Origin: Bacteroidaceae bacterium
GTDB lineage: Bacteria > Bacteroidota > Bacteroidia > Bacteroidales > Bacteroidaceae
Length of the DNA stretch: 63,160 nucleotides
Reading direction: 5' to 3'
Assembly: GCA_017470425.1 (NCBI GenBank)
Contig: JAFUYT010000022.1
Location: forward strand, 1 to 63,160
The notes beneath the pieces were generated by a model. The model had not been told where the DNA came from and did not search any database. It saw only the letters and a list, made by a program, of their open reading frames with translations. Of the stretch, positions 1,685 to 57,921 are shown one piece after another; the first letter of the stretch is position 1; every line of letters starts with the position of its first letter. A program made the translations under genes and the position numbers.

Positions 1685-2656
1685 TTACTCGTCAGTACAG
1701 CTATTCGTGGTGTCATTCCCTGTGCAGAGGAGGTCGATAGTTCCTTTCCCGTCGCGCTGAAGGATGGTAATCGGGACGTTGCCCAGGCAGGCGGCGATGG
1801 GCGAGAAGGTGGAGCCTGCGGAGCCGTAGATGTGGCGTGTGCGGCTAAGGGCGTACATCTCCACGAGGGCATCGCGGATGCCGTCGGTGTTGTCACGTGT
1901 GGCTTCAGCGGGTGAGGTGATGACGCGCGAGCCGTAGCGGCTACGCAACGCCGTCTTCGTGGCTTCGTCGTCGGTGGCGAGGTAGATGCGGAAATCTGTG
2001 CCAGGCCCCTCTCTATCTCCCCCCTGTGGGGGGAGGACCTCTGTGGGGGAGAGGATTTTATTGTAGTTCTCGATTTCTTGATCTACAGCCTCAAAGAAGA
2101 GCTCCAGCGGGCTCTCGTCGATGGCTTGCTGGTGGTCGGTGCGGCGGATGTGGAGGCCGATGGTGTAAGCGCTGAAGGCGGACGTGCGCTCGTCGATGAG
2201 GCGCTGCACCTCGTCGTTCGGCTGGAAGAGCAGGCGCAGGTCATCGGGCGTCCAGGGGCAGAAGTCACGGTAGGCCGTCATCAGCGTGTCGCCCTGCCGG
2301 AACCACGCTTCATAGTCGAAGCCGTCTTTATTCAAATTCCAGATCTGCGGTGCATAGATGATATGGCGGTAGCGGAGGCGCTGCAGGAGACGAGGCAGGT
2401 GTAGATTCTTCGCCGTGGGACGGGCAAAGAGCAGGCGCTCGAAGCCTGTGGCGTCGCGTATGAAGGCTCCCTCAGCCCCCTCCGTCCCCTCCGAGGGGGC
2501 CTTAAACAGCTCGTCAAACCTGCATCGCATCCCCCACTGCGACGTCCACAGGACACGCATCGGCACTCCCGCCCGTCGCGTCATGGCGTAGGCCGAAGCA
2601 GCCACGCGCATCCGGTTGCCAAGTCCGCCCTCGAGGATGATCCAGTTTTCTTTCAC
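1685..2656 (-). CDS. fucosyltransferase-like glycosyltransferase
   Basis: The 323-residue protein opens with a strand and the loop GGLGNRM (10-16), like the GGLGNQ motif of GT11 and related fucosyltransferases, and has HIRRTDH at 169-175, matching the GDP-fucose-binding HxRRxD motif. YLATDD near 225-230 is also typical. It probably adds fucose to a surface glycan. Its start overlaps the flippase stop by 4 bp, so the two are translationally coupled. Two Pro/Gly/Glu-rich stretches (about 53-65 and 201-220) coincide with GC-rich palindromes in the DNA and look like in-frame insertions between conserved segments. GT11 against NodZ-like assignment is not certain. Confidence 0.7.
   Translation of the reverse strand: MKENWIILEGGLGNRMRVAASAYAMTRRAGVPMRVLWTSQWGMRCRFDELFKAPSEGTEGAEGAFIRDATGFERLLFARPTAKNLHLPRLLQRLRYRHIIYAPQIWNLNKDGFDYEAWFRQGDTLMTAYRDFCPWTPDDLRLLFQPNDEVQRLIDERTSAFSAYTIGLHIRRTDHQQAIDESPLELFFEAVDQEIENYNKILSPTEVLPPQGGDREGPGTDFRIYLATDDEATKTALRSRYGSRVITSPAEATRDNTDGIRDALVEMYALSRTRHIYGSAGSTFSPIAACLGNVPITILQRDGKGTIDLLCTGNDTTNSCTDE
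2007..2052. repeat. GC palindrome inserted in frame in glycosyltransferase
   Basis: CTCCCCCC-TGT-GGGGGGAG (2017-2035) is a perfect 8-bp stem, followed by a half copy. On the coding strand it gives the linker SPTEVLPPQGGDREGPGT between the conserved helix and the strand DFRIYLATDD. Confidence 0.7.
2465..2501. repeat. GC palindrome inserted in frame in glycosyltransferase
   Basis: A C/G-rich stretch containing CCCCTCCGAGGGG encodes APSEGTEGAEGAF on the minus strand, in a low-complexity loop of the glycosyltransferase. Confidence 0.5.
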
Positions 2657-4197
2657 AATCGTGTAGCTTCGTTATTTCGTTCTTTTCGATGGAAGATGTA
2701 GTCGATGCTCTCGCGCAGTATCCGTGCGCGGGCGATCCAGAGGCTGCCGACGTAGAAGACGACGGCGATGAGGATGCGGAGGAAGAGACGGAGCCACGAG
2801 ATGGGAAGAGCACGAGTGGCGAAGTAGGCGGCGACCATCACGGCGAGGGCAAAGACGAAGAAGGGCGCGATGTCCTTCAAGGCGTTCCACCAGCTGAGGC
2901 CGATGAGGCGGCGGGCGCAGGCCTGCCACACGAGGAGCCAGCCGATGTTCAGCACGACGTAGAAGATGACCATCTCTGTGAGCTCATAGCCTAAGGCGTG
3001 CAGCACGATGATGCCGCCCCAGACGAGGGCGCAGTTCAGGAGGCCGATGACCATATTGATAGTAGAACGCCCGCGCGAGATGACAAGGTTGGAGTAGAGC
3101 GTCACCACGGGCGAGAAGGCACCGTAGAGGCATAGCATCGACATCAGTAGTGCGCTCTCGTGCCACTTCTCGCCTGCCAGCAGCACGATAAAGTCCTCGG
3201 CGATGAGGGCGAGACCCAGGAGGCAGGGAAACGAGACGAAGCAGGTGAAGCGCAGGAGCTTGCGGAAAGTGTTCAGGACGCCAGCAGCGCTGGCATCCTG
3301 AACACTTTCTCTCAGCACCGGCTGCGCCACGCCCTGCACCATACCGCCTATGGTAGCTATGGCGCGGTCGTCCCACTTGCGGGCGTTGTCGTAGATACCG
3401 GCGATGTAGCCGCCGGGGAAGAAGCGGTTGAGGAGGACGCCGAAGGCGTTGTTGTTCAGTTGAAAGGCGAGGCTGTTGATAAGGAGTTTGGACGAGAAGC
3501 CGAACATTTGCCAGGCGGGGCGGAGCGTGACGCGCAAGCCGCGGGGCCATGTGGGGCGCCACGGCGAGAACAGCCAGGCGAAGGCGGTGACGGAGGCGAC
3601 GTAGATGAGGCTCTGAGCGGCAAGGCCCCAGTAGGCAAGACCTGCCGAGGTGAGACAGACGGCAGCAATGCCGGAGAGGGTGATGGAGGCCAGCTGCATG
3701 ATACTGGTCTGCTTGACCATCAGGTGCCCGAAGAGGTAGGCACGTTGCGCGGTGCCGAAACTGGAGAAGACGAAGCCGAGGAACGCGAAGCGGCCGAGGG
3801 GGCGGAGGACGGGATCGTGGTAGAAGTCGGCTATAAGGGGTGCCGCGCAGAAGAGAATGATGTAGAGCGCGATGCCCACGAGGATGTTGAACCAGAAGAC
3901 GGCGTTGTACTCCTCGTGCGTCGGCTCACGCTTGTTGGCCAGTGCGGCCGTGAAGCCGCTCTCCTGGAGCACGCTGGCGATGTTGGAGAATATGACCAGC
4001 GCCGCCACCTTGCCGGAATCCTCGGGGGTGATGATGTTGAGGATCCACACGCCAAAGGCTGCTTGCAACAGCTGCATCATGCCATTGCTGAAGCCTCCCC
4101 AGATGAGACCTTGGGCAGTCTTGGATTTTAACGACCCACCCCCGCCCCCTCCCGTCGGGGAGGGGAGTGGCTGGCGCAATGTGGGTTCTTGTTTCAT
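2653..4197 (-). CDS. MOP-superfamily polysaccharide flippase (Wzx-like)
   Basis: The product is a polytopic inner-membrane protein of 514 residues with about 12 to 14 hydrophobic helices. It begins with AQGLIWGGFSNGMMQLLQAAFGVW-like sequence, which is characteristic of the PST/oligosaccharide flippase family that moves lipid-linked glycans across the membrane. The ATG at 4197 lies 1 bp after the waaA stop; an upstream ATG at 4236 would overlap waaA by 38 bp and is less likely. The N-terminal tail PLPSPTGGGGGGS is encoded by a GC-rich palindrome and is probably not part of the ancestral protein. It sits between waaA and a glycosyltransferase, so it likely exports an O-antigen or capsule unit. 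Confidence 0.85.
   Translation of the reverse strand: MKQEPTLRQPLPSPTGGGGGGSLKSKTAQGLIWGGFSNGMMQLLQAAFGVWILNIITPEDSGKVAALVIFSNIASVLQESGFTAALANKREPTHEEYNAVFWFNILVGIALYIILFCAAPLIADFYHDPVLRPLGRFAFLGFVFSSFGTAQRAYLFGHLMVKQTSIMQLASITLSGIAAVCLTSAGLAYWGLAAQSLIYVASVTAFAWLFSPWRPTWPRGLRVTLRPAWQMFGFSSKLLINSLAFQLNNNAFGVLLNRFFPGGYIAGIYDNARKWDDRAIATIGGMVQGVAQPVLRESVQDASAAGVLNTFRKLLRFTCFVSFPCLLGLALIAEDFIVLLAGEKWHESALLMSMLCLYGAFSPVVTLYSNLVISRGRSTINMVIGLLNCALVWGGIIVLHALGYELTEMVIFYVVLNIGWLLVWQACARRLIGLSWWNALKDIAPFFVFALAVMVAAYFATRALPISWLRLFLRILIAVVFYVGSLWIARARILRESIDYIFHRKERNNEATRL
4132..4170. repeat. GC palindrome at flippase N-terminus
   Basis: CCCTCCC and GGGAGGG arms around a 4-base loop form a hairpin just inside the flippase start. 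It encodes the Pro/Gly tail ahead of the first membrane helix. Confidence 0.7.
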
Positions 4198-4198
4198 C

Positions 4199-5515
4199 CT
4201 AAGAAAGCACAGCTTGATAGATGATGTCGGTAGCACCGGCGTTGTCGGCGATGTAGCTGCGGGCAGCGTTGGCAGCGCTGCGATAGGCCTCCTCGTCTGT
4301 CAGCAGGCGGTCGGCGATGTGGGCGAAGTCGGTGGCATCGTGCACCTCGAAGCAGGCGCCGGCATCGAGCAGGTAGCGGGCTTCGCGGAAGTTCTGGTTG
4401 TTGGGGCCGATGAGCACGGGGATGCCATAGACGGCGGCCTCGGGGATGTTATGGATGCCCACGCCGAAGCCTCCGCCGACCATAGCCAACTGCCCGTAGC
4501 GATAGATGCTGGAGAGGAGCCCGAAGCAGTCGATGAGGAGGACGTCGGCCTCGCCGACATTCGCCTCCGTGGCGGTGCTGTAGCGCAGGACGCGGTAGCC
4601 GTCGAGGGCCTGCTCAATGGCGTGCAGGTGGTCTTCGCCGATCATGTGGGGGGCGATGATGAGCCGCGGCGACGAAATCGCCGCGCACCCAACACGCCGC
4701 GCGGCGGTCTCTGGGGTAGCAGAGGAGGGGGAAGGGACGGCGGAGAGGCTGCCGGCGGCTCTCCTCTCTCGGAACCAGGGGATGAAGAGGGCTTCGTCGG
4801 GGGGCCAGCTGCTGCCGGCGACGAAGACGGTGTGACCCTGGGCGAATTGCTCGACCAGCGGCAGGGGCTTGGCGGCGTTGCGGATGTCAAGGACGCGGTC
4901 GAAGCGGGTGTCGCCCACGATGGTGACGTTGTCGGTGTGGCCGAGGGTGGCGAGGAGATCCTTGGACTGCTGGTTCTGGACAAAGAAATGAGTGATGCAG
5001 TTCAGCACACGGCGATAGCCGCCAAGGCGGCCGTACCAACGGAAGAAAATCTGCGTGGGGCGGAAGATGCTGCTCACCGAATAGACGGGGATGTTGCGCT
5101 TGCGACAAGCCTGCAGGTAGTTGTGCCAGAACTCATACTTGATCAGGAAGAGCATCTCGGGATGGACGTAGTGGAAGAAGATGCGGACGTTCGTGGGCGT
5201 GTCCAGCGGCAGGTAGCAGATGACGTCGGCACCTTCCCAGTCCTTGCGCACCTCGTAGCCCGAGGGGGAGAAGAATGTCAGCAGTATCTTGTACTCGGGG
5301 TGCTCACGGCGCAGGCGCTCCATCAGCGGGCGCCCCTGCTCGAACTCGCCCAGTGAGGCGGCATGGAACCAGATGTAGCGGGCATTCTTATCGACCTGCC
5401 GTTTGAGACGGACAAACGCGTACTGATGTCCGATAGCCAGCTTGCGGGCCCGCTTGTTGAAGATAGCAGCGATGCCCACGGCAAGCATATAGAGGTAGAT
5501 GGCGAAGCTGTACAA
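4199..5515 (-). CDS. waaA: 3-deoxy-D-manno-octulosonic acid (Kdo) transferase
   Basis: WaaA (KdtA) transfers Kdo from CMP-Kdo to lipid A at the cytoplasmic side of the inner membrane. The 438-residue protein has an N-terminal membrane anchor (about 3-19), the GT30 catalytic loop HAASLGEFEQ with the base Glu57, the segment KYEFWHNYL (126-134), and the CMP-binding motifs VAGSSWPPDE (232-241) and LIIAPH (285-290). Between those last two lies an extra stretch of about 33 residues (251-283) that is Ala/Ser/Pro/Arg-rich; in ordinary WaaA these strands are joined by a short loop. The DNA there is palindromic, so this looks like a repeat insertion. The gene follows gltX by 21 bp, the common Bacteroidetes order. 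Confidence 0.93.
   Translation of the reverse strand: MYSFAIYLYMLAVGIAAIFNKRARKLAIGHQYAFVRLKRQVDKNARYIWFHAASLGEFEQGRPLMERLRREHPEYKILLTFFSPSGYEVRKDWEGADVICYLPLDTPTNVRIFFHYVHPEMLFLIKYEFWHNYLQACRKRNIPVYSVSSIFRPTQIFFRWYGRLGGYRRVLNCITHFFVQNQQSKDLLATLGHTDNVTIVGDTRFDRVLDIRNAAKPLPLVEQFAQGHTVFVAGSSWPPDEALFIPWFRERRAAGSLSAVPSPSSATPETAARRVGCAAISSPRLIIAPHMIGEDHLHAIEQALDGYRVLRYSTATEANVGEADVLLIDCFGLLSSIYRYGQLAMVGGGFGVGIHNIPEAAVYGIPVLIGPNNQNFREARYLLDAGACFEVHDATDFAHIADRLLTDEEAYRSAANAARSYIADNAGATDIIYQAVLS
4664..4765. repeat. in-frame palindromic insertion in waaA
   Basis: About 100 bp with CGCGGCGA-CGAAA-TCGCCGCG and a further CCGCGCGG palindrome encode the extra waaA residues 251-283. The reading frame is kept. 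Confidence 0.65.
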
Positions 5516-5516
5516 C

Positions 5517-5546
5517 TTTAGTTTAAAGTTTATAGTTTAAAGTTGA
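5517..5546. repeat. 7-nt period repeat tract (AGTTTAN)
   Basis: Heptamers AGTTTAA, AGTTTAT, AGTTTAA, AGTTGAG cover the gltX-waaA gap and run over the last codons of gltX. Confidence 0.75.
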
Positions 5547-7099
5547 GAGATAGCGAAATCCATGCGGCGCAGCACTTCCTCCTTGCCCAGGAAGGCGGAG
5601 AGACCGTACATGTCGGGACCCTGTCCTTCGCCGACGAGGCAGACGCGCCAGGCATTCCAGGGCTTGATGCCCGACTGCTCCACCCACGGATCCACGACGG
5701 CCTTCTGGCCCTCGGCGGAGAAGTCATCGATGGTGGCCAGCACGTCGCGCAGCTGCTGCATCTCGGCAGCGGTCTCGGGCTTCCAGTTCTTCTTGATGAA
5801 CTTGTCCTCGCGGTCGAACGCCGTGGGCGCCACGAAGAAGAAGCGGCAGAGGGGCCAGAGGTCGCTGACGAAGGAGATATTGCGCTTGCGGGGACCTTCC
5901 TTCGTATCGTACTCGATGACCTTCGCCTTCATCATGCCCACGACCTCGGCGGCACGCTCCTCGGTGCACTCGATGCCTTGTTCCTTCAGGAGCTTCACGA
6001 AGGCGGGAGCCCACTCGGTGTCGGAGCGCTTCAGCAGGTATTCGCGGTTGAACCAGAAGCCCTTGACGTAGTCGAAGCGGGCACCGTTCTTGGAACATTT
6101 CTCGAGGTTGAATTTCTTTATCATGTCTTGCATCGACATAATCTCCTGGTCGTCGCCGGGGTTCCAGCCCAGCAGAGCCAGAAAGTTGACCACGGCCTCG
6201 GGCAGATAGCCCTTCTCGCGGTAGCCGCTGCTGACCTCGCCCGTCTCGGGGTTGTGCCATTCCAGCGGGAATACGGGGAATCCGAGGCGGTCGCCGTCGC
6301 GCTTGCTGAGCTTGCCCTTGCCGTCGGGCTTCAGTAGCAGCGGCAGGTGGGCGAAGCGGGGCATGGTGTCCTCCCATCCGAAGGCACGGTAGAGCAACAC
6401 ATGGAGCGGAGCCGACGGCAGCCACTCCTCGCCGCGGATGACGTGAGTGACCTCCATCAGGTGGTCATCGACGATGTTGGCCAGATGATAGGTCGGTAGC
6501 TGGTCGGCACTCTTCCACAGCACCTTGTCGTCGAGGATGGAGCTGTTGATGCAGACGTCGCCGCGGATGATGTCATCGATGTGCACATCCTCGCCCGGCT
6601 CAATGAGGAAGCGGACCACGTAGGGGTGTCCTTTGGCAATGAGGCGGTCGGTCTCCTCCAGCCCCAGGGTCAGTGAGTTGCGCATCTGCATACGGGTGGT
6701 GGAGTCGTACTGGAACTTGTCCTTCTCGCCGCCCTCGGCACGACGGGCATTCAGCTCCTCGGCCGTGTCGAAGGCCACGTAGGCGCGACCGTTGTCCAGC
6801 AGCTGCTGCACATATTTCTTATAGATGTCCTTGCGTTCACTCTGGCGGTAGGGGCCGTAGTTGCCTCCGTAGCTGACGCCCTCGTCGAACTGGATGCCGA
6901 GCCAGCGGAACGACTCGATGATATATTCCTCAGCTCCGGGGACCAGACGGGTACGGTCCGTATCCTCAATGCGGAAGATGAAGTCGCCGCCATGTTGGCG
7001 AGCGAAGAGATAGTTGTACAATGCTGTGCGCACGCCGCCAATATGCAGCGGTCCAGTGGGCGATGGCGCGAATCGAACGCGTACTTTTGGGGTATTCAT
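5537..7099 (-). CDS. gltX: glutamyl-tRNA synthetase
   Basis: This class I synthetase charges tRNA-Glu. The 520-residue protein starts [16 protein letters not shown] and carries the HIGH-type signature as PLHIGG near residues 17-22 and the KMSKS-type signature as KLSKRDGDR about halfway along. The reading frame is open upstream to 7999, but that part lies antisense to pgpH and has no synthetase sequence, so the ATG at 7099 is chosen; a consensus promoter lies 25 bp upstream of it. It probably leads an operon with waaA, the flippase and the glycosyltransferase. Confidence 0.96.
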
Positions 7100-7123
7100 A
7101 AGGCCTTTTAACGAAATTTTGTG

Positions 7124-7131
7124 CAAAAATA
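7124..7131 (-). promoter_or_regulatory. gltX promoter -7 element
   Basis: On the minus strand this reads TATTTTTG (TAnnTTTG), with TTTG at 7154-7157 placed 22 bp upstream as the -33 element. It is back-to-back with the pgpH promoter. Confidence 0.7.
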
Positions 7132-7165
7132 CAACAAATTCTTGGACGGGGCACAAATAATGTTG

Positions 7166-7173
7166 TATTTTTG
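7166..7173 (+). promoter_or_regulatory. pgpH promoter -7 element
   Basis: TATTTTTG lies 34 bp before the pgpH start, with TTG at 7142-7144 21 bp further upstream. The gltX and pgpH promoters overlap face to back, so the two may interfere. Confidence 0.7.
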
Positions 7174-7207
7174 TCCGCGAAAACGATAAAGTTGATACGA
7201 ATACCTT

Positions 7208-9382
7208 ATGAGCAGATACAATAAACCCCAAGAACGGACGTGGAAGAACTACCTCGTCCAGGCGCTCGTCGTGACGGCTGCCATCTTTGTCATCGTCTGG
7301 TTCCTGCCCCGTGGCGACCGTTCCACCATGCGCTTCGACGTAGGGCGTCCGTGGCCATACGGCCGCTTCATCGCTCCCTACGACTTCCCTATCTTCAAGA
7401 CGGCGGAGCAGCTGCAGCAGGAACGCGACAGCATCCACGCCTTCTACGAGCCCTACTTCGAGTTGCGGCAGGATGTCGTCACGCGCCAGATCACGGCCTT
7501 CCGCGCGGCGTTCCGTGAGCGCTATGCCGCGCTGCTCTCCCATCAGTACCGCACATACGTCGAGGGTCGCCTGCGCGAGATCTATGAGCGGGGCGTCGTC
7601 GATGCCAATGACCTGCAGGTGCTCCAGCTCGCCGGTACGCAGGCCGTCAGCGTCTATCACGGCACGGAGGCCATGACGACGCCCATCACACAGCTCTACA
7701 CGGAGAAGTCTGCCTATGAGCAGCTGCTGGACGTCCCCGATGAGAACGTGCTGAGTAAGGCGAAGCTCAAGCAGATGGACCTCAACGAGTTTGTTACCCC
7801 CAACCTCGTCTATGACGAGAGCCGCTCGCAGGCGGCATGGGAGGAGATGGAGAAGTCGCTCTCGCCCAGCTCTGGTGTGGTGCTGGCCGGACAGAACATC
7901 ATCGACCGCGGCGATATCGTGGATGAGCAGGTGGCGCAGATCCTGGAGAGCTACAGCCGTGCGCAGGCGTCGCGCCAGCAATCTACGAAAGCTGACCATC
8001 TCAGCATCCTGGGGCAGGTGCTCTACGTGGCTGTCGTCCTGCTGTGCCTCGCCTTCTACTTCAACCTCTTCCGGCAGGATTATATCAACAACTCACGCAG
8101 TGTGCTGTTGCTGCTGGCGTTGGTCCTCTCCTTCCCGCTGCTGACCTCGGCGCTGGTGCGCCACACATGGCTCTCGGTCTATATCATCCCGTATGCGATG
8201 CTGCCTATCTTCATCCGCGTGTTCATGGACTCCCGCACCGCGTTCTTCACCCACACGGTGATGGTGCTCCTCTGCGCCATCTCACTGCGTTATCCCTATG
8301 AGTTCGTGGCCACGCAGCTGATTGCGGGCTTGGTGGCCATCTACTCGCTGCGCGACCTCTCGGAGCGCTCCCAGATCTTCCGCACGGCCTTCCTGGTCAC
8401 CGGCTCCATCCTGGTCACCTTCATGAGCATCGACCTCATCCACGGGCGTATGCTCTTTGCCGACGACACGATGACGAGCGCCGACGTCTCCATGTACACC
8501 CACATGCTCATCTCCGGCGTGCTGCTGCTCTTTGCCTATCCGCTCATGTACCTGCTGGAGCGCATCTTCGGGTTCACGAGCAACGTGACGCTGGTGGAAC
8601 TCTCCAATGTCAACCGTGACCTCCTGCGTGAGCTCTCCCAGACCGCCCCCGGCACCTTCCAGCACTCTATGATGGTCAGCAACCTGGCTGCCGAGGTGGC
8701 CAACAAGATTGGTGCGAAGGCGCAGCTCGTGCGTACGGGCGCCCTCTACCATGACATCGGCAAGATGAAGAACCCGGAGTACTTCACGGAGAACCAACTG
8801 GGCGGCGTGAATCCCCACAACTTCCTCACCTGCAAGGAGAGCGCCGCCATCATCCTGCGGCACGTCACCGACGGTCTGGAGCTTGCCGACCGCCACCGGC
8901 TGCCGCGGAGCATCCGCGACTTCATCGCTACGCACCACGGTCGTGGCGTGGCCAAGTACTTCTATATCACCCAGAAAAACGAACACCCCGACGAGGAGAT
9001 CGACCTCGCGGACTACACCTACATCGGCCCCAATCCCAGCACGACGGAGCAGGCCATTCTGATGATGGTGGATGCCGTGGAGGCTTCGGCGCGTTCGCTG
9101 AAGGAATATACCGAGGAGAGCATCGGCGCCCTCGTCGAGAAGATCATCGACGGACAAATGGCCGACGGCTTCTTCCGGGACTGCCCCATCACCTTCGCCG
9201 ACATACAAACCACCAAGACCGTCCTCAAGGAGAAGCTCAAGACCATCTATCACACCCGCGTCTCCTATCCCACGCTGAAGACGGAGCCGGAGGCACTGGA
9301 GGCGGCATCCTCTACGGAAGAGGCTTCCCCAGTGTTGGACGCGAAGAAAGAAGAGAGTTATAAGGGATCTACGTCGAAGTAG
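7208..9382 (+). CDS. pgpH: 7TM-HD cyclic-di-AMP phosphodiesterase
   Basis: PgpH-type enzymes hydrolyse c-di-AMP to pApA at the cytoplasmic face of the membrane. The 724-residue protein has an N-terminal membrane helix (about 14-32), a long extracytoplasmic 7TMR-HDED domain (to about 265), a bundle of about seven helices (about 268-465) and a C-terminal HD phosphohydrolase domain. The metal-binding pair is His515-Asp516 in [10 protein letters not shown], and [15 protein letters not shown] and ATHHGRG carry further conserved histidines. The last 25 bp overlap the end of priA on the other strand, an unusually tight convergence of two conserved genes. Confidence 0.9.
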
Positions 9383-11370
9383 ATCGTGGCGGCGCCGTAG
9401 AGGCGTTCGGCGAGCAGCTCGCTGCGCGTCTGCAAAAGATACTGACGGGCGCGTGAGAAGGGGAGCGAGGGCTCCAACTTGATGATCAGACGGCGGATGT
9501 AGAGGCTCTGTACGCGAGGGATGGGCGGCTCGTCGGGTCCCAGGACGCGGGAACCGAAGATGCTGCGCAGCCGCACGGCGGCATCGCGCGCGAGAGCCTC
9601 GATGGTGCTGACGTGGCGGTGCTTCAGATAGACGATGACCATGCGCGAGAGGGGAGGGTAGTTGAAGTCGCGCCTCTCCAGCATCTGTTCCTGATAGAGC
9701 CCTTGGTAGTCATTGCCTACGACCTGATGGATGACCGCCAGGTCGGCGCTCATCGTCTGTAGCAGCACGCGTCCCTGGCGCTGGCGCCGTCCGGCGCGCC
9801 CTGCCACCTGCGACATCATCTGGAATGACCGCTCGAAGGCGCGGAAGTCGGGCTGGTGCAGCATCGTGTCGGCTGAGAGGATGCCCACGACGCTGACGTG
9901 CTCGAAGTCCAGTCCCTTCGTGACCATCTGCGTGCCCACGAGGATGTCTGTGCGGTGGGCTGCGAAGTCATCGATAATCTGCTCGTAGGCGGTGCGTGTG
10001 CGCGTCGTGTCGAGATCCATGCGTGCGACGCGCGCTGCAGGGAAGAGGCGCTGCAGCTCGTCCTCGATGCGCTCCGTGCCGAAGCCGTGTCCCCGCAGGT
10101 CGGGGGTCTCACAGGCAGGGCATTGCGCGGGAACCTCGGCGCTATAGCCGCAGTAGTGGCAGGTGAGGCGTCCGCTGCGCTTGTGCAGGGATAGCGGTAC
10201 GTCGCAGTGTGGACAGCGCGGCACCCAGCCGCAGACGTGGCATTGGAGCTGGGGGGCGTAGCCGCGGCGGTTCTGGAACAGGATGATCTGCTCGTCAGCG
10301 CTGAGGGCGCTCTGCATGGCTTCCAGGAGCTGCGGCGAGAACGGCCCTTGCATCAGGCGCTTGCGGCGCAGCTCCTTGACATCGACAATCTCCACTGCGG
10401 GCAGCTGCACCTGTCCGAAGCGCTCGGTGAGCGGCACCAGACCATACTTGCCCATGCGGGCGTTATAGTAGCTCTCAAACGACGGGGTGGCGGTGCCCAG
10501 CAGCGTGTGTGCACCGGCGCGGGCTGCCATGAGGATGGCCACGTTGCGGGCGTTGTAGCGCGGTGCGGGCTCTTGCTGCTTGAAGTTCACCTCGTGCTCC
10601 TCATCGACAATGACCAGCCCCAGCCGCTGGAAGGGCAGGAAGATGGAGGAGCGCACGCCCACGATGATGTCGTAGGGCTGTCGGGAGAGCTGCCGCTGCC
10701 AGACGGCGCCGCGCTCCTTGTCGCTGAACTTACTGTGATAGACGCCCAGGCGGTCGCCGAAGACGGCGCGCAGGCGGTCGGTGAGCTGTGTCGTCAGTAC
10801 GATCTCGGGCAGTAGGTACAGCACCTGTTCGCCGCGCTGGATGGCTTCTGCGATGAGGTGGGTATAGATCTCGGTCTTGCCTGACGAGGTGACACCGTGG
10901 AGCAGGCATACCTTGTGCGTCTGCCACTGCTCGCGGATGGCCGCGAGGGCTGCGGACTGGGCGGGGGAGAGAGAGGGGAGATCCGCCAAGCCTATGTCTT
11001 CAAAGGACGGGGAGTCCTCGCCCCCACGGGGGGGACGGGTGAGGGACTTCAGCTTCCCCGGCACTGCCGCCTTGAAGACCTCGCCGATGGTGCAGAGGTA
11101 GTAATCGGAGATCCACTGCCACAGTTGCCACTGCGTGGGCAGCAGGATCGGCTCGCGATCGACCAGCTCCTTCACCGTCTTGACCACCATCGTGGCATCG
11201 GCGGGCGGCTGCTCGTGGAGGCGCGCAATCATTCCCACCTTCGTCTGCTTGGCACCGAAGGGAACCACGACGCGACAGCCCACCTGTGCCTCGGCTGCCA
11301 GCGTCTCGGGCAGCTCATAGGTGAACAAGCCGGGCAGCGGCACGGGGAGAATGACGTCTGCGAACTTCAT
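9358..11370 (-). CDS. priA: primosomal replication restart helicase
   Basis: PriA reloads the replisome at stalled forks. The 670-residue protein shows the N-terminal fork-binding domain, Walker A GVTSSGKT (159-166), the DEEH box in VIVDEEHEVNFKQQ, and the paired zinc-binding cysteines CHVCGWVPRCPHC and CHYCGYSAEVPAQCPAC, then the second helicase lobe (VGTQMVTKGLDFEHV). A short Pro/Gly stretch TRPPRGGEDSPSFED (111-125) before the helicase core coincides with a GC-rich palindrome. The start overlaps the upstream barrel gene's stop (ATGA), so it is probably the last gene of the T9SS transcription unit. Confidence 0.95.
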   Translation of the reverse strand: MKFADVILPVPLPGLFTYELPETLAAEAQVGCRVVVPFGAKQTKVGMIARLHEQPPADATMVVKTVKELVDREPILLPTQWQLWQWISDYYLCTIGEVFKAAVPGKLKSLTRPPRGGEDSPSFEDIGLADLPSLSPAQSAALAAIREQWQTHKVCLLHGVTSSGKTEIYTHLIAEAIQRGEQVLYLLPEIVLTTQLTDRLRAVFGDRLGVYHSKFSDKERGAVWQRQLSRQPYDIIVGVRSSIFLPFQRLGLVIVDEEHEVNFKQQEPAPRYNARNVAILMAARAGAHTLLGTATPSFESYYNARMGKYGLVPLTERFGQVQLPAVEIVDVKELRRKRLMQGPFSPQLLEAMQSALSADEQIILFQNRRGYAPQLQCHVCGWVPRCPHCDVPLSLHKRSGRLTCHYCGYSAEVPAQCPACETPDLRGHGFGTERIEDELQRLFPAARVARMDLDTTRTRTAYEQIIDDFAAHRTDILVGTQMVTKGLDFEHVSVVGILSADTMLHQPDFRAFERSFQMMSQVAGRAGRRQRQGRVLLQTMSADLAVIHQVVGNDYQGLYQEQMLERRDFNYPPLSRMVIVYLKHRHVSTIEALARDAAVRLRSIFGSRVLGPDEPPIPRVQSLYIRRLIIKLEPSLPFSRARQYLLQTRSELLAERLYGAATIYFDVDPL
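10996..11050. repeat. GC palindrome inserted in frame in priA
   Basis: The CCCCCACGGGGG core at about 11024-11037 lies where PriA joins its N-terminal domain to the helicase core. It encodes a Pro/Arg/Gly linker. Confidence 0.6.
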
Positions 11371-11999: not shown

Positions 12000-12014
12000 T
12001 GTGTGAGGTGAAGG

Positions 12015-14770: not shown

Positions 14771-14918
14771 GAAGACCCGCCCCTCACCCTCCCGGTGAGG
14801 GAGGGAGTAGTTTCTACTCGAAGGATGAAAGGTTTTAGGGTCATAAAAAGAGTTTATTTATCAAAGTTCAATAGTCACAGGTGACCACTCCCACAGGGAG
14901 GGTGAGGGGTGGGTCTTC
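14771..14918. mobile_element. MITE-like element with 23-bp inverted repeats between gldL and gldM
   Basis: The left end starts GAAGACCCGCCCCTCACC and the right end is its inverted copy ending GGTGGGTCTTC; 22 of 23 positions match. Inside the left arm CCCTCACC-CTCCC-GGTGAGGG is a hairpin of its own. The right end runs into the gldL stop codon. The core between the arms is AT-rich and has no coding potential. Confidence 0.65.
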
Positions 14919-15870: not shown

Positions 15871-15995
15871 AGACCCTCCCCCCTGCCCCTCCCTTGTAGG
15901 GCGGGGAGTAGATACTTTTATTATCAGAGATTAATGATTTTCATTGTCTTTTGGTGACCCCACCCCCTCCCTACAAGGGAGGGCGGGGGAGGGCT
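15871..15995. mobile_element. inverted GC-palindrome pair between gldK and gldL
   Basis: Two copies of a CCCTCCCTTGTAGGG-type palindrome (15871-15908 and 15956-15995) face each other around 47 bp of AT-rich DNA. The pair fills nearly the whole gldK-gldL gap. Confidence 0.65.
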
Positions 15996-18904: not shown

Positions 18905-19203
18905 AAGCCCCTTCATGCAGGGCCTCTAACTTCAGATGCAAAGCTGCATCCGAGTTCCACGCATGGAACTCCCTCGAAGCTCGCGAGGTGTGAGGCGTAA
19001 GCTCGCGAGGTTAAGTGCATAAGCTCGCGAGCTTATGGGCGAAAGCACGCGAGCTTAAAGACGTAAGCTCGCAGGGTGTCGGGCGAAAGTCCACGGGGTG
19101 AAGAGAAAGAGCTCATGAGATGAAGGCTAATAACAGGACAGGTTCCTGTTTGAAACAGAGCAGGTCCCTGGTTGAAACTGGACAGGTTTCTGTTAAAATC
19201 TAG
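18905..19203. repeat. 22-bp phased array of short palindromes
   Basis: AAGCTCGCGAG-like units start at 18977, 18999, 19021, 19043, 19065, 19087 and 19109, exactly 22 bp apart. The phase continues as CAGGTTCCTG-like units at 19139, 19161 and 19183, again 22 bp apart. Each unit has a central palindrome (CTCGCGAG, CAGGNNCCTG); upstream, GAGTTCCA-CGCA-TGGAACTC (18953-18972) and GATGCAAAGCTGCATC look like older units. There are no unique spacers, so it is not a CRISPR array. No gene is seen in this stretch. Confidence 0.7.
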
Positions 19204-27836: not shown

Positions 27837-27852
27837 AAGACCCCATCCCCGA

Positions 27853-27873
27853 CCCCTCCCGTGAAGGGAGGGG
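27853..27873. repeat. GC palindrome between fusA and rpsJ
   Basis: CCCCTCCC-GTGAA-GGGAGGGG is an 8-bp perfect stem just after the fusA stop, of the same family as the copies elsewhere. No T-run follows, so it is not a typical terminator. Confidence 0.7.
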
Positions 27874-27922
27874 AGAGGGCTACGGTCAAGCAAATGACTC
27901 TTTGGCCGTCAGTCCTCAAAAG

Positions 27923-42965: not shown

Positions 42966-42988
42966 ATCGGATGGATGTACAGAAAATG

Positions 42989-43018
42989 AGTGAGGCGGTT
43001 CTCATGAACCGCCTCACT
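42989..43018 (-). terminator. hairpin downstream of tRNA-Gln(CUG)
   Basis: AGTGAGGCGGTTC-TCAT-GAACCGCCTCACT is a 13-bp perfect stem. On the minus strand it follows the tRNA and is trailed by CATTTTCT. Confidence 0.7.
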
Positions 43019-43025
43019 CTGTGCG

Positions 43026-46512: not shown

Positions 46513-46521
46513 ATAAACGTT

Positions 46522-46561
46522 AAAAGGAGGAACAGCCGTTAAACGACTTGTTCCTTCTTTT
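46522..46561 (+). terminator. terminator after cdsA
   Basis: AAAAGGAGGAACA and TGTTCCTTCTTTT form a 13-bp stem with one G-T pair, ending in a T-run. Confidence 0.75.
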
Positions 46562-46629
46562 GTCTGACATCGTAGTGTCGGGTGGCATAGCTGTTCGGCG
46601 CCTCATACCGTTGAACCAGCAAGCACATT

Positions 46630-49668: not shown

Positions 49669-49739
49669 TGCAACGCACGCGCGCGGTTAAATAATGTTAA
49701 GTGTTGCGCGGTGATTTATGGATTGAAGCGAGAAATGCG

Positions 49740-49747
49740 TATTTTTG
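49740..49747 (+). promoter_or_regulatory. -7 element of GH88 gene
   Basis: TATTTTTG lies 34 bp before the ATG at 49782. No -33 TTG at the proper distance is seen. Confidence 0.55.
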
Positions 49748-49781
49748 CAAGCTATTATTGAAACTTCAATCCGTGACCATC

Positions 49782-50990: not shown

Positions 50991-51021
50991 GGTAGTGCTG
51001 AAATGATACTGTCTGTCGAGA

Positions 51022-52953
51022 ATGATTTCCGTTGAACATCTTTCCGTTGAGTTCAGTGCCAAGCCCCTCTTCACGGATGTGAGCTTCGTCATCAATGACC
51101 GCGACCGCATCGCCCTCACGGGCAAGAATGGTGCGGGCAAGAGCACCATGCTCAAGATCATTGCCGGAGAACAGCAGCCTACAGACGGCGTCGTGGCGCT
51201 GCCCAAAGGCTGCACCGTGGGCTATCTGCCGCAGGTCATGGAGCTTGCCGGCAACCGCACGGTGATGGAGGAGGCGCTGCTTGCCTTTGACCATATCCGC
51301 GAGTTGCAGGCCGACATCGAGCGCATGAATCTCGAGATGGCCGAGCGCACCGACTACGAGAGCGAGGATTATATGTCCCTCGTCGAGCGCTACACCCATG
51401 CCGAGGAGCGTTTCCAGATGATGGGCGGTCTCAATTTCCATGCCGAGGTGGAGCGGACGCTGATGGGCCTTGGCTTCGAACGCTCCGAGTTCCAACGCCC
51501 CACCCGCGAACTCAGCGGAGGCTGGCGGATGCGCATCGAGCTGGCCAAGCTCCTGCTGCGCGCCCCCGACGTGCTCCTCCTTGACGAGCCCACGAACCAT
51601 CTCGACATCGAGAGTATCCAGTGGTTGGAACAGTATCTCCAGCAGCGGGCCGGTGCCGTCATCCTCGTCAGCCATGACCGCGCTTTCATCAACAACGTCA
51701 CCACACGCACGCTTGAGATCTCGTGTGGGCGTGTCTGGGATTATAAGGTGAAGTACGACGCCTATGTGCGCCTGCGCGCCGAGCGTCGGGAACAGCAACT
51801 ACGTGCCTATGAGAACCAGCAGAAGGAGATCGCCGACCTCAAGGACTTTATCGAGCGCTTCCGCTACAAGCCCACTAAGGCCGTACAAGTGCAGGAGCGC
51901 ATCAAGCAGCTGAACCGCATCGTGCCCATTGAGGTCGATGACGTTGACAACAGCGCGCTCCACCTGAAGTTCCCGCCCTGTCAGCGCAGTGGCGACTTCC
52001 CGCTCATCGTGGAAGACCTGAGTAAGAGCTACGACCACCCTGTCATCCAGCACGTCAACCTGACCATTCGCCGGGGTGAGAAGGTCGCTTTCGTGGGGCG
52101 CAACGGCGAGGGCAAATCCACGCTCGTCAAGTGCATCCTCGGCGAGATCCCCTTTGAGGGGACGCTCAAGGTGGGGCACAATGCGCAGATTGGTTACTTC
52201 GCCCAGAATCAGGCTCAGTTGCTCGACCCGGAGCTCACGGTCTTCGACACCATTGACCGCGTGGCTCGCGGCGACATACGCACCCGCATCCGCGACATCC
52301 TCGGCGCCTTCATGTTCGGCGGCGAGGCTTCCGACAAGAAGGTGAAGGTCCTCTCTGGCGGCGAGCGCTCCCGTCTGGCCATGATCAAACTCCTTCTGGA
52401 GCCCGTCAACTTCCTGATCCTCGATGAGCCCACGAACCATTTGGACATGCGTTCCAAGGATGTCCTGAAGGAGGCCATCGCCGCCTTCGACGGCACCGTC
52501 ATCGTGGTCAGCCACGACCGCCAGTTCCTCGACGGCCTCGTGGAGCGCGTCTATAGTTTCGGCGGCGGTCGTGTCCGTGAACACTTAGGAGGCATTTATG
52601 ATTGGTTGAGCAAGGCTTCTCATTCGCTCTCCGAAGGGGGCACCGCGTCATTGCCTCCCGCCCACAAAGTAACAGAAGCCCCCTCGGGGGCCGTAGGCGA
52701 GGCTGCTTCCTCCTGGGCAGCTCAGAAGGCGGCTGCGCGCCAGCGTAAGAAGCTGGAGAAAGCGGTAACCGATGCCGAGGAGAAGGTCGCTCAACTGGAG
52801 GCCGCCATCCATCTCATCGAGGACCAATTGGCCACCCCAGAGGGCGCTGCCGACACGACGCTCTACGACAAATACACACGCTTCAAGCAACAGCTGGCGG
52901 CGGCAGAAGAGGAATGGATGACCGCCTCAGAGGCTCTCGCCTCCTGCCCATAA
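51022..52953 (+). CDS. ABC-F family ATP-binding protein
   Basis: ABC-F proteins bind the ribosomal E site. The 643-residue protein has two ATPase domains: Walker A GKNGAGKS (34-41) and GRNGEGKS (359-366), signatures LSGGWRMRIELA and LSGGERSRLAMI, Walker B LLLDEPTNHLD and LILDEPTNHLD. Between them is the helical linker with YKPTKAVQVQERIKQL. A coiled coil forms the end (RKKLEKAVTDAEEKVAQLEA). Before it lies a low-complexity stretch (about 534-563) that is encoded by a GC-rich palindromic repeat. Closest to the Uup/YdiF-type; a resistance role cannot be inferred. Confidence 0.93.
   Translation: MISVEHLSVEFSAKPLFTDVSFVINDRDRIALTGKNGAGKSTMLKIIAGEQQPTDGVVALPKGCTVGYLPQVMELAGNRTVMEEALLAFDHIRELQADIERMNLEMAERTDYESEDYMSLVERYTHAEERFQMMGGLNFHAEVERTLMGLGFERSEFQRPTRELSGGWRMRIELAKLLLRAPDVLLLDEPTNHLDIESIQWLEQYLQQRAGAVILVSHDRAFINNVTTRTLEISCGRVWDYKVKYDAYVRLRAERREQQLRAYENQQKEIADLKDFIERFRYKPTKAVQVQERIKQLNRIVPIEVDDVDNSALHLKFPPCQRSGDFPLIVEDLSKSYDHPVIQHVNLTIRRGEKVAFVGRNGEGKSTLVKCILGEIPFEGTLKVGHNAQIGYFAQNQAQLLDPELTVFDTIDRVARGDIRTRIRDILGAFMFGGEASDKKVKVLSGGERSRLAMIKLLLEPVNFLILDEPTNHLDMRSKDVLKEAIAAFDGTVIVVSHDRQFLDGLVERVYSFGGGRVREHLGGIYDWLSKASHSLSEGGTASLPPAHKVTEAPSGAVGEAASSWAAQKAAARQRKKLEKAVTDAEEKVAQLEAAIHLIEDQLATPEGAADTTLYDKYTRFKQQLAAAEEEWMTASEALASCP
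52621..52710. repeat. GC palindromic repeat inserted in frame in ABC-F gene
   Basis: CCCCTCGGGGG and partner G/C blocks give HSLSEGGTASLPPAHKVTEA and then PSGAVGEAAS before the C-terminal coiled coil. Confidence 0.6.
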
Positions 52954-53004
52954 GCCCCATAGCCCCATTAGTCCCATAAAATCAATAAAAACTCTCTTCA
53001 TAGA

Positions 53005-55035: not shown

Positions 55036-55079
55036 TGTCCATTATCCATTTTCAATTGTCCATTGTCCATTATACATTA
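55036..55079. repeat. 7-nt period repeat tract (TTGTCCA)
   Basis: ATTATCCATTTTCAATTGTC and following TTGTCCA units fill the gap between the peptidase and metA. This is the same family as in the secreted protein gene at 20127. Confidence 0.75.
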
Positions 55080-55086
55080 AGACGAA

Positions 55087-56004: not shown

Positions 56005-56019
56005 GCCCCTCCGCATCTC

Positions 56020-57921
56020 ATGCCCCGTGCCATAGAGCTCCTCTCGCCCGCCAAGAACCTCGAATGTGGCATCGAAGCCATCCGTCATGGTGCCGATGCC
56101 GTCTATATCGGCGCACCGCGTTTCGGCGCCCGCGCCGCTGCGGGCAACAGCGTGGAGGACATTGCGGAGCTGGTGGCCTATGCCCATCTCTTCGATGCCC
56201 GCATCTATGTCACCCTCAACACCCTGCTCTACGACGATGAGCTCCCCGCTGTGCAGGCGCTCATCCGTGAGTTGGCCGCCGCCCACGTGGATGCCCTCAT
56301 CACCCAGGACCCGCGCATCACCTCTCCCATCCCCCTGCACGCCTCCACGCAGATGGACAACCGCACCATCGATGATGTCCGTGCCCGTGCCGAGGCCGGC
56401 TACGAGCAGACCGTCCTGGCCCGTGAGCTGTCGCTCGATGAGATCCGCGCCATCCATGACGCTGTCCCGGAGATGGCGTTGGAAGCCTTTGTGCACGGCG
56501 CCTTATGTGTCAGCTACAGCGGTCGCTGCTATGCCAGCGAGTACTGCTTCGGCCGCAGTGCCAACCGTGGTGAGTGCGCCCAGTTCTGCCGCCTCCCCTT
56601 CGACCTCATCGATGCCGACGGGCAAGTGGTGAGCGCCCCCGCCAATGCCCCTGCCTCCCGCCTTGGGAGTGTGCCCGACGGTTTTCCCGTCGGGAAACCC
56701 CTCCGTCAGCGCCACCTCCTCTCCTTGAAGGACCTGAACCGCTCCCGCGATCTCGAAGCGATGATGGACGCCGGCATCTCCTCCTTCAAAATCGAGGGCC
56801 GCCTCAAGGATGTCTCCTACGTCAAGAACATCACCGCCTACTACCGCCAGCAGTTGGATGCCATCCTGGCCCGCCGCCCGCAGGACTACTGCCGCGCCTC
56901 CTATGGCGCCAGCACCCTCTCCTTCCAGCCGAATCCCCTGAAGAGCTTTAATCGCGGCTTCACCGATTATTTCCTGCATGGGCGCACTGCCGACATGGCC
57001 AACTTCGCCACGCCCAAATCTCTGGGTGAGCCCGTGGGCAGCGTGAAGGAGTTGCATCCGGCATCGTTGTCCGTTGCTGGCACGGCGACCTTCTCCAATG
57101 GTGACGGCCTCTGCTTCTTCGCCTCCGACGGCCACCTGCAAGGTTTCCGCGTGAACCGCATCGACCAGCAGGGCCGCCTCTATCCCGCCGACCCCTCCGT
57201 GCTGACGTTCCTCCGCAAAGGCACAGCCCTCTACCGCAACCTCGACGCCGCCTTCGAGCGCGTGCTCTCGCGCCCCACCGCCGACCGCCGCATCCCCGTC
57301 CGCTGGCTCCTGGAGGACATCCCCCTCCCCGCAGTCCCCTCGCCGCCAGGCGAGATCCCCCTCCCCGCCGCAGTGCCCTCGCCGTCAGGCGAGCCCCCCC
57401 TCCCTGCCGCAGTGCCCTCGCCGTCAGGCGAGGTCTCTCCCCCCCTCCCCGCTTTCCGCCTCACCCTCACCACCGAGTCCGGCCGCACCGCCTCCCGCAC
57501 CTTCCCCTATCCCCACGAACTCGCCCGCACTCCGCAGACCGACAACCTGCGCCGCCAGCTCCTGCGCCTCGGCGACACCCCCTATACCTGCACAGAGGCT
57601 GACATAGACATCCGCTTCACCGACAACTGGTTCCTCCCCGCCTCTGTGCTGGGCGAGTGGAGGCGGATGGTGGTCTCAGATCTCCGCTTCAAGCCCTCTG
57701 TGCGCACGGCGCAAGGCGGTGTGAAGACGGAAGGCTTGAAACCGAGGCCCGCCGCTCTCATGACCTGTCGCTACTGCCTCCGTCATGCCCTAGGCTACTG
57801 CACGCGCGACGGCCGCCGCCTCCCTGTCCGTGAACCCCTCTCCCTGCGCCTTGCCGATGGCCGCACGTTCCCCCTGCATTTCGACTGCCGCCGCTGTGAG
57901 ATGCAAGTGCTGAAGGATTAA
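56020..57921 (+). CDS. U32 family peptidase / RlhA-like protein with repeat insertions
   Basis: The 633-residue protein has the U32 core from ELLSPAKNLECGIEAIRHGA (6-25) to the catalytic and iron-sulfur cysteines GALCVSYSGRCYASEYCFGR and NRGECAQFCRLP (about 164-195). RlhA, a family member, makes 5-hydroxycytidine in 23S rRNA, so this may be its role. The C-terminal part carries CRYCLRHALGYC and CRRCEMQ. Two DNA insertions sit in frame: a hairpin at 56650-56700 (SVPDGFPVGKPLRQ) and three tandem hairpins at 57326-57446. Confidence 0.85.
   Translation: MPRAIELLSPAKNLECGIEAIRHGADAVYIGAPRFGARAAAGNSVEDIAELVAYAHLFDARIYVTLNTLLYDDELPAVQALIRELAAAHVDALITQDPRITSPIPLHASTQMDNRTIDDVRARAEAGYEQTVLARELSLDEIRAIHDAVPEMALEAFVHGALCVSYSGRCYASEYCFGRSANRGECAQFCRLPFDLIDADGQVVSAPANAPASRLGSVPDGFPVGKPLRQRHLLSLKDLNRSRDLEAMMDAGISSFKIEGRLKDVSYVKNITAYYRQQLDAILARRPQDYCRASYGASTLSFQPNPLKSFNRGFTDYFLHGRTADMANFATPKSLGEPVGSVKELHPASLSVAGTATFSNGDGLCFFASDGHLQGFRVNRIDQQGRLYPADPSVLTFLRKGTALYRNLDAAFERVLSRPTADRRIPVRWLLEDIPLPAVPSPPGEIPLPAAVPSPSGEPPLPAAVPSPSGEVSPPLPAFRLTLTTESGRTASRTFPYPHELARTPQTDNLRRQLLRLGDTPYTCTEADIDIRFTDNWFLPASVLGEWRRMVVSDLRFKPSVRTAQGGVKTEGLKPRPAALMTCRYCLRHALGYCTRDGRRLPVREPLSLRLADGRTFPLHFDCRRCEMQVLKD
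56651..56700. repeat. hairpin repeat in frame in U32 gene
   Basis: CCCGACGG-TTTTC-CCGTCGGG (56674-56694) is a perfect 8-bp stem within coding sequence. Confidence 0.65.
57326..57446. repeat. triple tandem hairpin repeat in frame in U32 gene
   Basis: Three units of about 39-42 bp each contain CTCGCC-GYCA-GGCGAG and encode PLPAAVPSPSGE-type peptides. Units two and three are nearly identical, a sign of recent duplication. Confidence 0.85.

Follow-up and report, generated by a model that had tools for sequence, protein, structure and literature searches.

Palindromes and host genes in the window

The window analysed here is the whole of contig C19 (63,160 bases; GenBank JAFUYT010000022.1), part of a 2.42-Mb draft genome of a gut-type Bacteroidaceae bacterium (G000) that is 72% complete. 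The first-pass annotation of this window, which took its source for Prevotella (not confirmed), described GC-rich palindromes of one family lying in frame between conserved blocks of several genes, and likened them to the Rickettsia palindromic elements (RPEs). GC-rich palindromes or repeats are indeed present at, or within a few bases of, all 11 sites. They do not form a single family. We distinguish at least three, labeled F1, F2 and F3 (names coined in this analysis), plus rarer repeats: 4132, 14771, 15871 and 27853 are F1; 10996 and 2007 are F2-derived; 52621 is F3; 4664 and 56651 match rarer repeats only; 2465 has one weak hit; and 57326 is a low-complexity tandem repeat. Our main subject is F2, a high-copy inverted pair of hairpins that lies in frame within a gene at 46 of 47 sites, predominantly in one reading frame, and which, in the ten hosts compared, takes a position where relatives carry a short variable loop or another peptide. 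Below, G-numbers denote the other genomes compared and L-numbers denote loci extracted from genomes.

The genes in question and their inserts are as follows:

1685..2656, minus strand: fucosyltransferase-like gene, an open reading frame (ORF) named in the first-pass annotation and aligned here with five relatives
2002..2041, plus strand: F2-like half element GCCCCTCTCTATCTCCCCCCTGTGGGGGGAG, giving LPPQGGDREG in the minus-strand reading; blastn match to F2 of 87.5% over 40 bp
2472..2500, no strand assigned: GC-rich palindrome in the fucosyltransferase-like gene; one weak hit elsewhere (29 bp, 93%, E 3.4e-4), none for the reversed query
2653..4236, minus strand: flippase ORF (Polysacc_synt_3; Pfam match from residue 41)
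4199..5515, minus strand: waaA (KDO transferase; Pfam PF04413)
4667..4702, no strand assigned: palindrome CGGCGACGAAATCGCCG... in waaA; best match 36 bp, 86%, E 5.9e-6
9358..11370, minus strand: priA (Pfam PriA_3primeBD, DEAD and Zn_ribbon_PriA)
10998..11035, minus strand: F2-derived insert in priA, read PPRGGEDSPSFEDIGLAD, between the 3'-binding (3'BD) and helicase domains
51022..52953, plus strand: ABC-F ATPase gene (Pfam ABC_tran, ABC_tran_Xtn and ABC_tran_CTD)
52605..52697, plus strand: F3 element SEGGTASLPPAHKVTEAPSGAVGE in the ABC-F gene, in frame, in the linker before the C-terminal domain
56020..57921, plus strand: peptidase U32 gene (Pfam Peptidase_U32 and DUF3656)
56664..56704, plus strand: palindrome GTGCCCGACGGTTTTCCCGTCGGG (GSVPDGFPVGKP) in the U32 gene; three weak genome matches (34-40 bp, 77-82%)
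57326..57446, plus strand: Pro-rich tandem minisatellite in the U32 gene, low-complexity; 5 hits versus 2 for the reversed control

Window genes were identified with Pfam; the fucosyltransferase-like ORF (1685..2656) matched no Pfam family. Five of the hosts (fucosyltransferase-like, waaA, priA, ABC-F and U32) have ORFs open on both sides of the insert and align with same-genus orthologs outside it, which bears out that part of the description. The flippase copy does not fit it, since this copy precedes the conserved domain and sits past the waaA stop at 4199.

We searched each window site against its own genome with blastn, using the reversed query as a control. Because loci overlap, the resulting numbers are hits rather than copy numbers. 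The site at 2007 gave 81 hits and the priA insert 46, with none for either reversed query; the priA insert has 19 genome matches, counting itself. The F3 element, which reads ...PPEGGTAP...TEAPSGAVGGA, gave 7 hits at 6 places (reversed, 0). The best of these covers 93 bp at 75% identity (E 1.7e-15, L034), and the others are L029, L027, L067 (isoleucyl-tRNA synthetase, IleRS) and two short exact matches. The IleRS gene (L067:137-223) thus carries F3 besides F2, two families in one protein. For the waaA palindrome, 3 hits correspond to two other places (L031 and L018 being one place, L078 the other), with none for the reversed query, and the matches of the U32 palindrome at 56664-56704 have E values of 1.8e-4 to 5.3e-4 (reversed, 0).

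Relatives differ from the window genome at these loops. The loop at 2002-2041 is absent from G010, G018 and G040, is replaced by a short SPRGELERG in G041 and by a different long insert in G016; 2472-2500 corresponds to a variable loop, and its origin from an element is uncertain. In waaA, the loop at 4667-4702 is shorter in G040 and G011 and different in G018 and G041. The U32 loop at 56664-56704 is missing from G040 and G041, shorter in G010, G011 and G016 and longer in G018, while the minisatellite at 57326-57446 is absent from G010, G011, G040 and G041. Judged by these sequence matches, element DNA is contained in priA, the ABC-F gene and, as a half-copy, the fucosyltransferase-like gene; waaA and U32 match rarer repeats weakly.

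Anatomy and copy number of F2

F2 was first reached from the priA linker (10998-11035), which matched 18 other places in the genome at 74-96% identity over short stretches. Seven of these were read (L002-L008), and all are F2. The element is an inverted repeat of ~108 bp in which two hairpins resembling repetitive extragenic palindromes (REPs), CTCCCCCCGTGGGGGGGAG, surround a spacer: GCCCCTCTCTAACTCCCCCCGTGGGGGGGAGGACTCC, then ~35-40 variable nucleotides, then an inverted counterpart ending GAG(A/C)GGGGC. Over 108 nt the inversion is near-perfect, and the folding energy of one copy as RNA is -76.3 kcal/mol, compared to -53.0 +/- 4.4 for shuffled sequences. Two short inverted hairpins, a pair that folds as one hairpin, and high copy number are the anatomy of REPs and of their paired form, the REPIN. 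Pairing of the flanks is not above that of shuffles, and we rejected the idea that the palindrome reaches outward into them. Among 35 F2 flank pairs no target-site duplication was found (no length between 1 and 8 nt was matched by more than one pair), as in Y1/HUH systems.

A covariance model, with which 150 of 1783 first-look candidates were scored, gave at least 106 matches on both strands of G000. From the model matches we listed 50 copies. The draft contains near-duplicate contig stretches (C26/C34 and C22/C31), whose duplicate copies were excluded from counts; dropping three of the 50 on these grounds (one in L084, two in L085) leaves at least 47 distinct sites. Some of the weakest copies, L025, L087, L081 (C34:25367) and L042, may belong to sister families. 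Nested or joined copies, F2 within F2, occur in L055, L066 and L072. At L041:15694-15934 and in L083 (TruA), the unit has been tandemly amplified in frame (~63 and 69 bp per unit), amounting to ~80 residues in the host.

The inserts could in principle be GC-rich low-complexity linkers that drifted into palindromes within each gene. Loops at these positions are naturally variable in relatives, the tandem repeat of U32 at 57326 is Pro-rich and matched by its reversed control, and the matches of waaA 4664 and fucosyltransferase-like 2465 are few and weak. What recurs in dozens of unrelated genes, however, is near-identical DNA and not merely similar composition. The exact F2 core occurs 38 times forward and 49 times in reverse in G000 (87 in all) and the F1 core, CCCTCCCN{3,9}GGGAGGG, 142 times, against 0 for either in the controls, a large excess over chance; reversed queries gave 0 hits at 10 of the 11 sites. 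The exact-core and reversed controls rule out composition as the source of F1, F2 and F3, a rejection that does not extend to 2465 and 57326. As a general explanation of the inserts, drift is hardly credible. In the other 392 genomes of the order-wide draw, none of them from the same genus, the exact F2 core was not found.

F2 copies within genes

Codon-usage scores were trained on nine window genes and used to choose the host frame; ORF length would instead place L070 and L074 on the opposite strand. All but one of the 47 F2 sites (L079) lie within ORFs of 200 aa or more that extend for 40 aa or more to either side of the copy. None of the 46 in-gene copies has a stop in the host frame, which continues beyond them; by codon usage, both flanks score positive for 45 of these, L059 being weak to its left. 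Under the rule for internal copies that we also applied to F1 (both flank scores >8, at least 25 aa each side), 45 of the 46 qualify.

A single frame accounts for 34 of the 46 sites, 32 of them directly and two (L027, L082) with offset hit starts, compared to 13.1 expected if all stop-free frames were equally likely. It had been suggested that the element tolerates translation in several frames; as a rule, this is not supported for F2. The dominant frame reads (K/R/W/Q/E/G)PLSNSPRGGEDS...LPPTGG or ...SPPRGERGEG, or sequence variants, and is the one that gives PLSNSPRGGED.... The remaining copies are in +2 (4), -0 (4), -2 (3) and -1 (1). Within the spacer, differences fall at codon positions 1, 2 and 3 in 163, 174 and 182 cases, and codons with a single change are synonymous in 60 cases and not in 153 (47 non-independent equal-length pairs). 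This lack of codon-position bias suggests that the peptide is tolerated and free to vary, rather than conserved.

Hosts of F2 were identified with NCBIfam at its curated cut-off. They include seven aminoacyl-tRNA synthetases (the Val, Met, Ile, His, Cys and Arg tRNA ligases and PheT), TruA, TruB, TsaD, RlmN, PyrF, ProA, FeoB, HemW, CobQ, a MazG-type pyrophosphohydrolase and methylmalonyl-CoA mutase. ClpB, PurL, AroE and an RlmB/TrmH-type methyltransferase scored below the cut-off, ClpB and PurL as genes truncated by the extracted locus. Some genes hold two F2 sites (e.g. L055, L066). F2 is thus a many-copy palindromic repeat found in frame in unrelated genes, and in this respect, as well as in its variable linkers and the relatives that mostly lack the linker or carry a different peptide, it behaves as the RPE comparison proposed.

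If the inserts were skipped, through ribosome bypass or RNA processing, the proteins would be made without the peptide. Mobile bypassing elements of yeast mitochondria are a model for such inserts. A hairpin as stable as folded F2 RNA would be expected to trouble translation, and many of the host enzymes are essential and conserved, both of which speak for skipping. Yet a skipped insert need not be open, and every in-gene copy is stop-free and in the host frame; moreover, in 15 of the 46 the length is not a multiple of 3, and the host frame is intact all the same. We consider skipping very improbable.

Orthologous sites in relatives

Ten conserved F2 hosts, picked among the 46 sites as well known, were compared with four to five same-genus relatives each; both flanks were present and aligned in 47 of 50 host-relative pairs. 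For nine of the ten hosts the F2 peptide is absent from all relatives compared, which carry instead a native loop of a few to ~14 residues or another, sometimes longer, peptide. In the remaining host, cysteinyl-tRNA synthetase (CysRS), it is common to two of five relatives (G016 and G040). The CysRS gene (L038:5018-5167, i.e. C5:65018-65167) has an arrangement of its own, with two inverted F2-like halves around a native helix, each standing in for a loop, so that host sequence would seem to act as spacer; this too is common to G016 and G040.

PriA was compared across 23 loci, leaving out G042 and G003, where the motifs were not found in any ORF. In G018, G015 and G043 the spot is taken by palindrome-like peptides of a different sequence, and a plain short linker alone is seen in G041, G040 and G011. 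Similarly, other palindrome-like peptides stand at the corresponding spots in PurL and ABC-F of G040, ClpB of G041 and the fucosyltransferase-like protein of G016. PriA of G090 and G014 (L138, L139) has ~150 more residues between the 3'BD and helicase domains. Given these, the PriA linker is probably in part the remnant of a former domain, and loss of the ~150 residues appears to have occurred in the clade that includes the window genome. PriA was the one gene checked beyond the genus sample for a linker shared with distant orthologs: by eye, none of 17 named orthologs has the palindrome peptide at this spot. Together with the genome-wide excess over chance, this leaves the RPE-like reading standing after both tests that were proposed against it in the first-pass annotation. 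The named matches listed at the top are from the rumen Bacteroidaceae metagenome-assembled genome (MAG) Tb.RUG.95, Prevotellaceae MAGs and Paraprevotella, and the linker of Tb.RUG.95 (L207) equals that of the same-genus genome G031.

Our genus sample consists of 61 genomes, G000 included, from a larger genus, and 48 of the relatives were scanned with the F2 model. Hits were obtained in 31 of these 48 and in 2 of 32 genomes from other families (34 of 81 with G000). We examined 41 copies from 19 related genomes: 18 are each the best locus of a genome, and the other 23 are further top-listed copies from G015, G016, G042 and G043. Among the weaker model hits included, some open with sequence resembling F1 or another GC-rich palindrome. 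By the stricter rule 31 of the 41 are internal to ORFs, and of these 16 are in the main frame, 7 in -2, 6 in -0 and 2 in +2.

RAYT-like genes

Four genes resembling REP-associated tyrosine transposases (RAYTs) of the HUH type were seen in G000 (L044:1228-2589, L045:205-1980, L309:2421-3944 and L310:1468-3231). An initial view that the genome lacks a RAYT was rejected after sub-threshold hits were read as proteins. The motifs, read by eye, are MPDHxHL and YHxRI...Y...NPxR (YHDRI...Y...NPLRA in the genome's own ORFs), and they are conserved in a three-row alignment. A search of the PDB returned transposase structures, at best with E 0.016 over the HUH part. The middle of these proteins is of low complexity (VPAATVPAAT and the like), and a C-terminal part of ~200 residues is conserved; in the two scanned (L044, L045), this part matched no Pfam or NCBIfam family. 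A DprA-like C-terminal domain was considered, but neither Pfam, NCBIfam nor the PDB search returned it, and we do not claim it. Near one of the four genes, an F2 half-copy lies no more than ~300 bases from the open frame.

RAYT-like matches were found in 36 of the 61 genus genomes, G000 included. F2-model hits occur in 23 of 29 RAYT-positive relatives compared to 8 of 19 RAYT-negative ones (Fisher p 0.013), and across the 48 relatives RAYT-like presence and F2-model hits show a rank correlation of 0.56; both values are uncorrected for kinship. From their motifs and this association, the RAYT-like, putative HUH transposases are likely to be the movers. Because none of the four genes is flanked by element pairs, RAYT-driven copying is something we infer.

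Origin of the inserts

We take the inserts to be REP/REPIN-type elements that were copied into genes and survive where the frame is open and the peptide replaces a variable loop or linker, and put the probability of this reading at roughly 0.78. On this account, REP/REPIN-type palindromes would be copied around the genome, genes included, by the genome's own RAYT-like Y1 HUH transposases, acting on hairpins in single-stranded DNA. Insertions would survive only where the reading frame stays open, with in-frame placement arising from purifying selection after insertion, not from frame sensing. The encoded peptide, hydrophilic and rich in Pro, Gly and Ser, would be translated, would substitute for a short variable loop or linker, and would persist as a neutral passenger. 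At orthologous sites, the resident element may sometimes be replaced by another copy.

Several observations weigh against this account. The count of 47 sites comes from an incomplete draft with a minority of candidates scored, and is hence a lower bound that favors good matches. In relatives, 10 of the 41 copies fall outside the rule for an internal position. For most of the ten sites compared, the window genome lacks residues of the native loop, and a precise empty site was not seen among the 61 genus genomes, where the nearest PriA is 77% identical. With regard to the mover, Pfam Y1_Tnp scores are 18.9 and 19.4 bits in the genome's own proteins (cut-off 23) and 24.4 in that of G081; eight RAYT-negative genomes still have F2-model hits; and the REPtron arrangement of flanking element pairs was found at none of the four RAYT-like genes.

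A further point against it is that ten cross-species pairs, in eight genes, have F2 at the same site as G000. These pairs were picked for peptide likeness among the copies in relatives (G015, G002, G040, G042 and G043), and the genes are ClpB, PheT, an alpha-galactosidase-like gene (L047), HemW, a helicase (L068), L071, a biotin-carrier gene (L074) and FeoB. The ClpB and PheT inserts are common to G000 and G015. Such same-site insertions are not private and may be old. Identities in the ten pairs are 83-97% for the arms, 57-93% for the spacers and 69-93% for the 150-bp flanks. In four pairs (HemW twice, L074 twice) the closest spacer is that of the orthologous copy; in six, other G000 copies are nearer. 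This pattern suggests that some insertions were inherited, and that elsewhere the element was exchanged or inserted again.

The same pairs speak for domestication, in which the hairpin or peptide would have a function (in RNA stability, translation pausing or protein interaction) and be kept at fixed sites, as the arms are often more alike than the flanking gene DNA. Against such a function stand the spacer peptides with no codon-position bias, the absence of the element from the relatives compared for nine of ten hosts, and the functionally unrelated nature of the hosts. Arm identity can also be explained by copying between elements, given the six pairs in which the spacer is closer to a non-orthologous copy. 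We regard domestication as unlikely.

A serious possibility, if somewhat short of even odds, is mobilization by a factor other than a RAYT, be it another transposase or template switching or gene conversion between palindromes. The missing REPtron arrangement, the missing native loop residues, the CysRS half elements around a native helix and the same-site turnover all fit this idea, while the RAYT-like matches across the genus and their association with F2-model hits count against it. Going beyond the copying account, F2 might be a REPIN lineage adapted to coding sequence, which in its dominant frame encodes a neutral soluble loop, replaces loops instead of only enlarging them, and, at fixed permissive loops of essential enzymes, has its resident copies swapped time and again by RAYT-like enzymes or gene conversion. 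This extension is rather doubtful; if true, essential enzymes would be sites of ongoing transposase-driven loop exchange.

Relation to known repeats

RPEs (RPE-1, RPE-4, RPE-6 etc.) are described as small repeated palindromes found in frame in the ORFs of unrelated conserved genes, where they encode a conserved peptide (PMC10969869, PMC3733652). In behavior, F2 resembles them in being a small repeated palindrome in frame in unrelated conserved genes. It differs in that RPEs belong to Rickettsia and are given as ~150 bp, whereas F2 is a ~108-bp REPIN-like double hairpin of Bacteroidales, almost wholly intragenic and with one dominant frame. The RPE-like expectation that the insert is missing in relatives' orthologs holds for nine of the ten hosts, with the sharing of the ClpB and PheT inserts with G015 counting against it.

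The phenomenon is not confined to Rickettsia. In the account of Di Nocera et al. (2013; PMC3733652), GTAG/CGTC REPs include intragenic monomers and dimers that encode ~20-30 aa, also in tRNA synthetases and TruB; intragenic copies are most numerous in Opitutus terrae and Rickettsia conorii, Bacteroidetes are among the reported carriers of CGTC repeats, and these REPs are mostly intergenic. F2 is like them in being intragenic and in having tRNA synthetases and TruB as hosts, and unlike them in not being mostly intergenic. A constant GTAG/CGTC tag at the foot of the stem was not found: GTAG is present in 12 of 44 F1 and 6 of 47 F2 stretches, and CGTC in 6 of 44 and 9 of 47, respectively.

With REPIN/RAYT systems (also known as BIME and TnpA-REP), F2 shares the inverted REP pair that forms one large hairpin, the high copy number and the presence of putative Y1 HUH-type genes in the genome. 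REPs are extragenic by name, however, a description F2 contradicts with 46 of 47 sites internal, and the RAYT-like genes here lie outside REPtrons, four in one genome. These proteins also differ in their low-complexity middle and ~200-residue conserved C-terminal part, although TnpA-Y1 subclasses without REPs and with a large conserved C-terminal domain have already been described (PMC6006769). Miniature inverted-repeat transposable elements (MITEs) with ORF fusions, such as QMITE1 of Coxiella and ERIC, are presented as non-autonomous inverted repeats that extend or enter ORFs (PMC10969869). F2 likewise consists of non-autonomous inverted repeats in ORFs but has no target-site duplication; our search for a parental transposon was limited to the Y1 family.

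The kind of element is therefore already known. What is new is the phylum, the near-exclusive intragenic location of F2, its dominant frame, the replacement of loops and the apparent exchange at the same site; among the open papers listed, none reports in-frame palindromes in Bacteroidales. Coding palindromes have so far been a curiosity mainly tied to Rickettsia, and F2 adds a separate, large case, with 46 in-frame sites of one family in one incomplete genome and similar copies in sister species. As far as sequence can tell, housekeeping enzymes seem to include an extra loop that derives from a repeat and is tolerated. With conserved host proteins open to expression and testing, and candidate enzymes encoded alongside them, the origin of protein segments from selfish palindromes is directly testable. 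A caution also follows for annotation: what is annotated in such genomes as a Pro/Gly-rich linker may consist of repeat DNA.

Family F1

F1 is a REP-type hairpin whose profile, built from the clearest copies, is GACYCWCCCCCnn-CCCTCCC-n4-GGGAGGG-AG. It frequently occurs as inverted pairs, with a spacing of mostly some 60-220 bp. In 453 kb sampled, window included, F1 is mostly outside genes or at gene ends: by codon usage 10 of 53 copies are internal and 43 are not, in the main the extragenic location expected of REPs. We therefore rejected F1 as the in-frame family. If the sole requirement is 60 aa or more of open frame to either side, 17 of the 53 count. The window copies are as follows:

4133..4171, plus strand: F1 REP-like hairpin (nhmmer 27.6 bits); 44 own-genome blastn hits, reversed 0
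14774..14915 (14774-14812 plus, 14890-14915 minus): F1 inverted pair between gldM and gldL, found with the profile; 26 hits (site 14771), reversed 0
15872..15989 (15872-15912 plus, 15961-15989 minus): F1 inverted pair in the interval between gldL and an FGE-sulfatase-type gene, found with the profile; 21 hits, reversed 0
27843..27877, plus strand: single F1 copy between the EF-G gene (ends 27836) and the ribosomal protein S10 gene; 48 hits, reversed 0

The last three lie between genes, as had been noted. Alignment of N-termini with relatives places the copy at 4133-4171 upstream of the conserved domain of the flippase, and it is either leader DNA or an N-terminal extension, QPLPSPTGGGGGGS. At L025:18715, L037:2096 and L042:12666, F1 is found near ORF starts, behind segments that resemble signal peptides (TTPSLIGRAGGES and similar). 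Given these positions, F1 may supply N-terminal sequence.

Other features of the window

Outside the families studied, the window has a strong palindrome with 14-bp arms at 42988-43019 and two neighboring palindromes, CATAAGCTCG and GCGAGCTTA, at 19018-19072. The ORF of glutamyl-tRNA synthetase (5537-7999) is open for ~300 codons ahead of its likely start, and this upstream stretch is probably an overlapping spurious frame.

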